A stretch of DNA of 64,000 bases from contig JAPPOH010000013.1 in assembly GCA_028818155.1 (NCBI GenBank), forward strand, positions 1 to 64,000, written 5' to 3'. This stretch comes from Candidatus Woesearchaeota archaeon. GTDB lineage: Archaea > Nanobdellota > Nanobdellia > Woesearchaeales > UBA525. A program made the translations under genes and the position numbers. Numbering within the stretch: position 1 is the first letter of the stretch; every line of letters starts with the position of its first letter. Positions 35,259 through 41,418 of the stretch are shown here, one piece after another. Below the pieces are notes generated by a model, which was not told the DNA's origin, searched no databases, and saw only the letters and a program-made list of their open reading frames with translations.

Positions 35259-36413
35259 TCACTCTCTTGCGAGCGGAAGGCCCGTCTCCCTCGCATACAT
35301 GTTAGCAACTGGGGCGAAGAGTGAATCAACAAGAATAGCCGTACCTGTTCGCTCAAATTGTGTTCCATAGAAACTTCTTGATACAAGTGCCGCTGAAGTT
35401 GTTTGCCGCGTTGCGCCACTAACATCCCCGAACTCTTCCCTTTTTTCTTCCTGGTATACTCTTCTGAGTGTATGATTCGGATCACGCTCACACTCCAACA
35501 ACAGAGAGAATAGTGGGTCAACTAAGGCGCTGAAAAAATAAAATGTAGTATCGTATCCTTCTTGTTTCCTCCAAGGCATTTCAAATTTGTTCACCATGTC
35601 CAACATGAGATCTTTCACCCGTATTTGACGATCTTTAATTGCTCCTTTACCACCAATCATTGTTCTTTTCTTAACGGCATATCCAATAGCTTCCTCGACA
35701 GTAGTAATGATCGCCCTCTCGTATGCCTCGCGAGAGTATTGAGTCATCTTTCGCCCGAATTGATGATATATATACTCATTCCGTTCTAGGGGCACACCCC
35801 TTGTGCGCTTGATCGGAATTTTCAAGAGACCATGTACTTTCACTGCCCGAAAGGCGTATGAAACGTGCTTGTCAATGCCTGCAACATCTCCTTCCTGTGC
35901 TGCCTGCTGCACCCTCTCGATGAAGTATGCAGGGGATGTGTTCTTCATAGCAGTATCTAAGATTCGTTCTGCATCATCAGCTCGTATTTGCCGTGGTAAA
36001 CTGAGGTCTCCACCCACTTCAATATGTGCGTTAGCTAGATGCAGTTCTGCATTTTCAAAGTCGCCTGCTTCAGCGAATGCTTCGGCGAGATTCTGCTGTG
36101 TTTGCGCATACAACTCATGTGCTTGACGCAGCACTTGCTGTGCCCTTGTACTTTGTCCCCATTCAGCAGCTCTCTGAGCAATTTTCCGCCACGAGTTTAG
36201 AATTCCTTGGAACGTATCGTGTTCCTCTGCCAGACGTAGAATTCTTCTGTAATCACCTTCAAAGGATGGGTTTTTTGGGGTTGGAATAGAGTTGTATTCT
36301 TGACCTTGGGAGCCTCCATATCCTGAGATCTTTTCTTCGAGAGTGTTCTGCCCAGTGTTATACATCGACTCGCCAAGGTTTTTCTTCAAATCATCATATA
36401 TCCCCATGCGCAT
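35259..36413 (-). CDS. Hypothetical protein with TPR-like helical region
   Basis: ORF of 384 aa. Confidence 0.65.
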   Translation of the reverse strand: MRMGIYDDLKKNLGESMYNTGQNTLEEKISGYGGSQGQEYNSIPTPKNPSFEGDYRRILRLAEEHDTFQGILNSWRKIAQRAAEWGQSTRAQQVLRQAHELYAQTQQNLAEAFAEAGDFENAELHLANAHIEVGGDLSLPRQIRADDAERILDTAMKNTSPAYFIERVQQAAQEGDVAGIDKHVSYAFRAVKVHGLLKIPIKRTRGVPLERNEYIYHQFGRKMTQYSREAYERAIITTVEEAIGYAVKKRTMIGGKGAIKDRQIRVKDLMLDMVNKFEMPWRKQEGYDTTFYFFSALVDPLFSLLLECERDPNHTLRRVYQEEKREEFGDVSGATRQTTSAALVSRSFYGTQFERTGTAILVDSLFAPVANMYARETGLPLARE

Positions 36414-37580: not shown

Positions 37581-37859
37581 GTGATGTCTATGCAAGTCGA
37601 ATTAACAAGAATATCTGAAAAGGGGCAAGTTGTTATTCCTTCCTCCCTCAGAAGAGAAATGGGAATACAAAAAGCAGATCAATTTATGATATTTGGCGAA
37701 GGTGGAACAGTCATACTCAAGAAAATAGAAACATCAGTAATCAAAAAAACATTTGACGAAGTAGCCAAACCCTTGCAAGAAGCAGCAAAGCAAGCAGGGT
37801 TAACAAAAACGGATATACAAAAGGCAATCAAGGATGTCAGAGCCGAAAATAGTTCTTGA
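37581..37859 (+). CDS. AbrB/SpoVT-type antitoxin
   Basis: ELTRISEKGQVVIPSSLRREMGIQKADQFMI. Confidence 0.88.
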   Translation: MMSMQVELTRISEKGQVVIPSSLRREMGIQKADQFMIFGEGGTVILKKIETSVIKKTFDEVAKPLQEAAKQAGLTKTDIQKAIKDVRAENSS

Positions 37860-38265
37860 TACAAACACGTTTGTTTCTGCTTTCTTTTGGGACGGAAATG
37901 AAGCTGCACTTCTGAGAAAGATTGAACAAGGAGCTGCAACGCTCCACATCACCCAAGACATTCTCTATGAAATCGAAGATGTGGTGAAGCGACCAAAGTT
38001 TCAAGAAGTTATGACAAATGCCGGACTGACACCTGCAGAAATCATGCAACGTATCATTTCTCTTTCACATCTTGTTATTGGTTCACCATTGCATATCACC
38101 GCATGTAGAGATGCGGATGACAATAAGTTCCTTGAATGTGCAGTACATGCAAAAGCTGATTACATTGTGAGTGGTGATCAAGACTTACTTTCATTGAAGC
38201 GTTACGAGAACATCCCAATTGTAAGAACGAAAAAAATGCTAGAGCTAGTTACAGCTCCTTCATAA
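37834..38265 (+). CDS. PIN-domain toxin
   Basis: IVLDTNTFVSAFF...DADDNKFLECAVHAKADYIVSGDQDLL; overlaps the antitoxin. Confidence 0.9.
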   Translation: MSEPKIVLDTNTFVSAFFWDGNEAALLRKIEQGAATLHITQDILYEIEDVVKRPKFQEVMTNAGLTPAEIMQRIISLSHLVIGSPLHITACRDADDNKFLECAVHAKADYIVSGDQDLLSLKRYENIPIVRTKKMLELVTAPS

Positions 38266-40096: not shown

Positions 40097-40651
40097 ATGA
40101 AACTACTAGCAATATTCCTTCTTGCATGCATGCTTGTCATGCCTGCGTACGGCGCCGCGTACTTGAAAATCGGCGACATCAAAGGCGAAGCAGCAGCATC
40201 AGGACACGAAAACTGGATCACACTCGATTCCTTCTCATTTGGTGTCGAGCGCGAGATGAAAGAGTCCGGTGAGAAAGGCGGTACCGCAGATATCAACATC
40301 GGCATTGGCGAACTCCAAGAGATCACCGTCTCGAAACCACTTGATGCATCTTCACCGTTGCTCGCGCAAGCAGCAGCGAGTGGGAACTCCCTCGGCACCG
40401 CAGAGATTGAGTTTGTCGAGACAGGCGGCGCGGATGGCAAGCCCGCAGTCTACTTGAAGTACAAGCTTGACCGTGTGTTCGTGAAGAGCTGGAGCATCTC
40501 CGGCGACGCAGACGACCGGCCAACAGAGGAAGTCTCGTTCTACTACAACAAGATCGCGTTCGAGTACCAAGGAGCGGGTGACAAAAAGAGCACAAGCACA
40601 GCACATTTCGGCTGGGATAACGTCAAGAACAAGAAATGGGAGAGTAGATGA
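40097..40651 (+). CDS. Secreted Hcp-like (type VI tube family) protein
   Basis: Signal peptide then AAYLKIGDIKGEAAASGHENWITLDSFSFGVERE...SWSISGDADDRPTEEVSFYYNKIAFEY. Confidence 0.85.
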   Translation: MKLLAIFLLACMLVMPAYGAAYLKIGDIKGEAAASGHENWITLDSFSFGVEREMKESGEKGGTADINIGIGELQEITVSKPLDASSPLLAQAAASGNSLGTAEIEFVETGGADGKPAVYLKYKLDRVFVKSWSISGDADDRPTEEVSFYYNKIAFEYQGAGDKKSTSTAHFGWDNVKNKKWESR

Positions 40652-41418
40652 AGCTCTTTGCCTTGCTGCTCGGGATACTCGTCATTACGCCAGTCCTGGC
40701 ACTGGATGTCGAGCTTGATGATCTCACGATCCATGCAGACACCTATCAGCAGACGCTGAGTCGAGAACTAGCTGGAGCACGAGACACAGGGCACGTGACA
40801 CATGAAGGCGTGAAGCTCACCAGAGCGATGGATGAACAAAGTGCAGGCTTAGCACAGGCAGCAGTCGAGGGGACGACATACAAGACCGTCACCGTCCACC
40901 TCCCCCTCGCACCACCACTGCAACTGCAGCAGGCCGCGATCGCCTCATACAATGTCTACGTAGCAGGGGATGACAGGCCACGAGAAGAACTCCTCCTCGT
41001 CTACCAAGAACTTGCATGGGATGTTACGGGATGCCACGACGCGCCCTTCGACATCACTGTCACGCCCAAGAAAGCAACGGTGGTTCGCGGCGAGGAAGTG
41101 GGCTATGCAGTGCAGATTACAGCAGACGAAGGATTCACACAGTCAATCGATGTGGTTGCTGACGTGGACATGCCGTTCCACAAGAAACAGTACGCGCTCG
41201 GCACGTATGAAGAGTTCCCATATGAGAAAAAAGGCACGATTCCCATCCCCGATAGTGCGCTCGCAGACATCACAACAGATGTAGTCATCAGAGCACAATC
41301 GGGAGAGGAGTGTGATGAGGAGATCATCACCGTGACGGTCGATGGGCCTATCCCCTTCGTCGGGAGCATGCTCGCTGGGTTGAGCAGTGCCTGGGACACA
41401 GTCACTGGCTGGTTCTGA
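40648..41418 (+). CDS. Second secreted Hcp-like protein with C-terminal Ig-like region
   Basis: Signal peptide; aligns with the upstream protein (DEQSAGLAQAAVEG; SYNVYVAGDDRPREELLLVYQELAWDV); VTPKKATVVRGEEVGYAVQITADEGF. Confidence 0.7.
   Translation: MKLFALLLGILVITPVLALDVELDDLTIHADTYQQTLSRELAGARDTGHVTHEGVKLTRAMDEQSAGLAQAAVEGTTYKTVTVHLPLAPPLQLQQAAIASYNVYVAGDDRPREELLLVYQELAWDVTGCHDAPFDITVTPKKATVVRGEEVGYAVQITADEGFTQSIDVVADVDMPFHKKQYALGTYEEFPYEKKGTIPIPDSALADITTDVVIRAQSGEECDEEIITVTVDGPIPFVGSMLAGLSSAWDTVTGWF

Follow-up and report, generated by a model that had tools for sequence, protein, structure and literature searches.

We analysed a stretch of 64,000 nucleotides from a Candidatus Woesearchaeota archaeon (GenBank assembly GCA_028818155.1, contig JAPPOH010000013.1, positions 1 to 64,000, hereafter the window), in which two adjoining genes, hcpA and hcpB, encode Hcp-family proteins with predicted export signals (Table 1). 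Hcp forms the cytoplasmic inner tube of the contractile type VI weapon and is normally leaderless. Both reading frames were intact on direct reading, and the stop codon of hcpA and the start codon of hcpB share the four nucleotides ATGA, an overlap already given in a preliminary description of this DNA, which suggests that the two genes are translationally coupled.

Table 1. Features of the hcpA/hcpB locus (window coordinates)
Feature	Position	Strand	Basis
hcpA: secreted Hcp-family protein, 184 amino acids (aa)	40097..40651	+	PF05638, TIGR03344, fold match to Hcp structures
hcpA predicted signal peptide MKLLAIFLLACMLVMPAYGA, exact cleavage site uncertain	40097..40156	+	hydropathy, position ahead of domain
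hcpA extended (ring-stacking) loop and flanking strands, DSFSFGVEREMKESGEKGGTADINIGIGELQEITVSKPLD	40226..40345	+	sequence comparisons; loop role per PMC4650826
ATGA overlap, hcpA stop / hcpB start	40648..40651	+	direct sequence reading
hcpB: secreted, divergent Hcp domain, probable immunoglobulin (Ig)-like domain and amphipathic C-terminal tail, 256 aa	40648..41418	+	PF05638; G088 homologue
hcpB predicted signal peptide MKLFALLLGILVITPVLA	40648..40701	+	hydropathy
hcpB probable Ig-like beta domain, bounds approximate	41047..41340	+	model strands, predicted local distance difference test (pLDDT) about 40-53; homology to G088 partner

Family, fold and leaders of HcpA and HcpB

HcpA matched PF05638 from end to end (E 5.3e-33, 114.5 bits for a cut-off of 23.5) and also passed the cut-off of the NCBIfam TssD model TIGR03344, and its best sequence match among PDB chains was EvpC (E 8e-16). 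Both proteins were modelled with AlphaFold2 as monomers only, from shallow alignments of 7 and 6 sequences respectively. The model of mature HcpA consists of a beta barrel and one helix (mean pLDDT 73.9, loop 33-47 below 50), and the best 50 Foldseek matches listed were all Hcp structures or Hcp fusions, with a probability of 1.00. HcpA is thus a clear Hcp-family protein with the Hcp barrel, as had been proposed.

HcpB matched PF05638 at positions 36-128 (E 4.3e-8, 33.9 bits, over the cut-off) and fell short of TIGR03344; in its Hcp domain the first strand is missing and the loop is shortened. Its homologue is the partner protein of a second genome of the same family (G088), with 27% identity (E 5e-25) over most of the length including the C-terminal part. 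No match to the Pfam Ig models was found in the C-terminal part of HcpB, which is probably Ig-like, judging from a low-confidence model and from homology to the G088 relative. Of the two domains first described in HcpB, the Hcp domain was recovered in a divergent form and the Ig-like one is only probable. HcpB may resemble phage lambda gpV, in which an Hcp-like tube domain is followed by a beta-sandwich (Ig-like) decoration (such decorations are reviewed in PMC8718954), and differs from it in that it is predicted to be Sec-exported and that neither capsid nor tail genes were seen in its vicinity; we take the analogy as a lead and not as proof.

A hydrophobic core of 12 residues lies at the N-terminus of each protein, directly ahead of the domain (mean hydropathy 3.21 for HcpA and 2.97 for HcpB), from which Sec-type leaders are predicted for both, in line with the preliminary description. 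Leader calls in all Hcp sets rest on hydropathy and not on SignalP. The sequence LLAC in the leader of HcpA was considered as a lipoprotein signal and judged unlikely by our own reasoning, since the hydrophobic run ahead of the cysteine is not long enough.

Injection machinery and archaeal distribution

The source genome (1.64 Mb in 17 contigs, 87% complete) contains no Hcp genes other than hcpA and hcpB. We searched this genome in whole, at that completeness, for VipB (sheath, VipB/TssC; E. coli control positive), the Phage_GPD/VgrG spike (control genomes positive) and Phage_sheath_1 (three control genomes positive), leaving aside the gp19-type tube and BaseplateJ, and obtained no match to any of the three; nor was type VI machinery found near hcpA and hcpB. 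The observation that no type VI genes were visible, made earlier on the sequence alone, was thereby extended to the genome. VipB was present in 2 of the 17 genomes checked, which are exactly the two planctomycetes with a leaderless Hcp beside tssC. A cytoplasmic type VI tube was rejected on the absence of VipB and VgrG matches in the 87% complete genome together with the predicted leaders on both proteins, and a tailocin or an extracellular contractile injection system with a phage-type sheath by the lack of a Phage_sheath_1 match in the genome.

The pair recurs in other archaea, a wider pattern that the preliminary description had missed. Within the order, Hcp was detected in 5 of 196 genomes, three of them with pairs (the source genome and, in the same family, G088 and G180) and two more distant ones with single genes; Hcp was absent from two other members of the source genus. 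Within the Nitrosopumilaceae, 24 of 252 genomes had Hcp over the cut-off, many as pairs. The genomes compared are mostly metagenome assemblies. We collected 16 archaeal loci with two genes, in which a small Hcp gene adjoins a larger one of 249-977 aa, the larger partners often having Big_3_5, Big_7, Big_13, HYR, TSP_3, FIMAH or NHL/beta-propeller domains; at L103 and L105 the genes of the pair lie side by side but point in opposite directions, being transcribed divergently. No conserved third gene was found in the archaeal Hcp loci besides general neighbours, for example universal stress proteins. A hydrophobic leader-like segment precedes the domain at the N-terminus of all 54 archaeal Hcp collected (12-residue mean hydropathy of at least 2.1), whereas the hcpA-type proteins beside planctomycete tssC start at the domain and have no leader by hydropathy. 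In the open-access papers, to which our literature search was confined, we found nothing on secreted or archaeal Hcp.

Bacterial stand-alone secreted Hcp (Xanthomonadales L014, Solirubrobacter L054 and L061, Marinicaulis L057) resemble the source pair in having a leader, an Hcp domain and no VipB in the genome, and differ from it in that no tandem partner was seen at their loci.

Two further arrangements were seen among archaeal proteins. In three secreted proteins (L111:4560-5600, L114:4032-5069 and L118:4616-5668) collagen-like GPQGPAG repeats are followed by a C-terminal Hcp domain, and in two others (L090:621-1601 and L123:3698-4678) a repeated DSFFDIF-type motif stands ahead of the Hcp domain; this motif also occurs in a Paceibacterota protein (L019:982-2226).

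The stacking loop and a candidate extracellular assembly

Hexamers of Burkholderia Hcp1 no longer stack when the extended loop is mutated (PMC4650826). The loop region of HcpA (32 residues) is on average 90% identical between distant phyla, its DNA is 74% identical and 61% of the identical residues are encoded by different codons; the loop is therefore conserved at the protein level. The loop motif is rare in planctomycetes (3 of 395 genomes, seed included). Across the 16 archaeal pairs, loop likeness was 0.263 within pairs and 0.108 between pairs (P about 5e-5, or 0.0005 after correction for core identity). Because some pairs are local duplications, the test was rerun in a clade with separate A and B branches, giving 11 of 720 permutations for the loop and 89 of 720 for the core. 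Such matching favours contact between the partners, or gene conversion.

We consider it somewhat probable that hcpA and hcpB encode a Sec-exported pair of Hcp-fold proteins, HcpA forming a ring or short tube outside the cell and HcpB serving as a decorated cap or surface tether. On the outer side of the cytoplasmic membrane, HcpA would most likely form the usual hexameric ring and perhaps a short tube; the related ring domain of HcpB would stack on this ring or enter it and add its Ig-like stalk and amphipathic tail, and the resulting structure may serve adhesion or cell-surface architecture and not contractile injection. The simplest reading of an exported, presumably ring-forming protein with a loop-matched partner that bears surface domains is a stack of rings or a short tube outside the cell, one layer of which is decorated or acts as a tether. 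The preliminary description had placed a ring or tube outside the cell in another context; the extracellular location fits the wider archaeal pattern, and the assembly itself, like the stacking of A on B, the tethering and the adhesion, is what we infer. More tentatively, and as a possibility that we hold with some doubt, archaea of at least two lineages may have made of the type VI tube protein an extracellular filament or stack of rings with two Sec-exported components, a core Hcp and a loop-matched partner with Ig, HYR, beta-propeller or other surface domains. If this were so, archaea would have a type of surface appendage of which we have found no description, and export of the tube domain without sheath or spike would make it a self-assembly module of general use, open to redeployment beyond the cell. 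Because of the matched loops, this idea could be tested directly with two small proteins. A further caution is that hcp gene counts overestimate type VI systems in archaea and in environmental genomes.

Several observations weigh against an assembly of HcpA with HcpB. The loops of the source pair itself do not match, HcpA's own partner ranking 9th of 16, and the HcpB loop is shortened as in L009, the other locus with the same A type and an unmatched B. The missing first strand of HcpB could prevent ring formation, and the HcpB model, beta-rich after the Hcp domain, is of low confidence (mean pLDDT 58.4); its top Foldseek matches, to gpV, are weak (template modelling score 0.29, root-mean-square deviation 22 A). 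Gene conversion between neighbours would yield the same loop signal, and few loci entered the test. Some archaeal Hcp also stand alone (G167, G021, G674 and G695).

These single-gene Hcp would fit an alternative that we regard as unlikely though worth keeping in mind, namely that secreted Hcp works as a carrier, as a binding protein or as an effector in the form of free rings or monomers, with neither a tube nor surface tethering. The Hcp domains behind collagen-like stalks (L111, L114 and L118) likewise suggest a terminal binding domain, but the recurring two-gene units with matched stacking loops point to direct contact between partners. It is very unlikely that a contractile system is present but too divergent to recognise, or lies in the missing 12% of the assembly, the leaders having been misread: the genome is 87% complete and was searched for three machinery families, but VipB was absent from 15 of 15 tested genomes other than the two tssC-hcp planctomycetes, several of them more complete, and the leader-like N-termini of all 54 archaeal Hcp would be needless for a cytoplasmic tube. 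That the genes are horizontally acquired orphans with no present function, or assembly contamination, would agree with the patchy distribution (two other genus members being devoid of Hcp) and with G088, where the neighbouring DNA alkylation gene and the pair lie on different contigs, but is most improbable given intact and overlapping hcpA and hcpB frames, an archaeal Pth2 among the flanking genes, pairs in two other genomes of the family and an HcpB homologous to the G088 partner over most of its length.

Loop and barrel segments were also seen in other contexts. Secreted proteins of 83-126 aa from Marinicaulis metagenome-assembled genomes (MAGs; L017:7872-8123 and L018:7986-8366) and from the same family (L133:4009-4356) contain the stacking loop EREMKESGEKGGTEDINIGVGELQE, or a close form of it, without an Hcp barrel; two genomes with such proteins (G205 and G633) also encode a separate secreted Hcp with a differing loop (L057 and L132), as if loop and barrel had been split. 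Conserved Hcp segments are reordered or duplicated in secreted proteins of a Paceibacterota MAG (L019:982-2226) and of L057:1342-1974 and L132:811-1473, for example AGTAEIDFVEV after YYNKI, and the loop segment is duplicated in tandem inside one protein in planctomycetes (L015:7674-8420 and L016:1892-2515). In Solirubrobacter taibaiensis (L020:7770-9677), an otherwise unrelated protein of 635 aa contains 14 residues that are identical to the Hcp loop (SFGVEREMKESGEK).

Origin of the pair and flanking genes

Scanning genomes with HcpA retrieved relatives in Nitrosopumilaceae, Planctomycetes, Ilumatobacter and Xanthomonadales (55-66% identity to HcpA when aligned). Planctomycete type VI Hcp/TssD proteins (L012, L013, L044 and L045) share with the archaeal proteins the fold and a very similar extended loop, and L012, L013 and L044 have an Hcp-related second gene directly downstream, like the source pair; they are leaderless and adjoin a sheath gene, whereas the archaeal proteins have leaders and the source genome has no sheath-gene match. 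Leaderless Hcp encoded beside planctomycete tssC are among the closest bacterial relatives of HcpA (57-65% identity to L013 and L012). In a core-only tree, HcpA shared a clade of full support with the planctomycete type VI proteins and with two Nitrosopumilaceae loci, and HcpB joined the G088 partner on long branches with moderate support (91/88).

Since HcpA and HcpB belong to separate groups of the tree, they do not derive from a recent duplication, and replacement of A at the source locus by transfer is one reading of this pattern. The pairs at other loci, in G711 and in G887, resemble local duplications, so that pairs must have arisen on more than one occasion. Because the nearest bacterial relatives of HcpA include ordinary leaderless planctomycete type VI Hcp, the gene was probably transferred horizontally and reused: archaea likely acquired the hcpA of the source genome from a planctomycete-like bacterial type VI lineage, and it gained a leader. 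A phage or plasmid origin of this Hcp subtype was also considered and rejected, as there was no phage match, plasmid matches were only 29-36% identical and no relative was found in viral contigs.

The genes flanking the pair are ordinary (archaeal Pth2, an AbrB/PIN toxin-antitoxin pair, a cation:proton antiporter, DNA alkylation repair, dihydroorotate dehydrogenase and sugar-nucleotide genes), and an archaeal host is supported because Pth2 is archaeal. Elsewhere in the window, a protein of 384 aa encoded at 35259-36413 on the minus strand matched nothing in Pfam or NCBIfam at E 0.001. The AbrB-type antitoxin and PIN-domain toxin genes overlap one another at 37581-38265, upstream of the antiporter.
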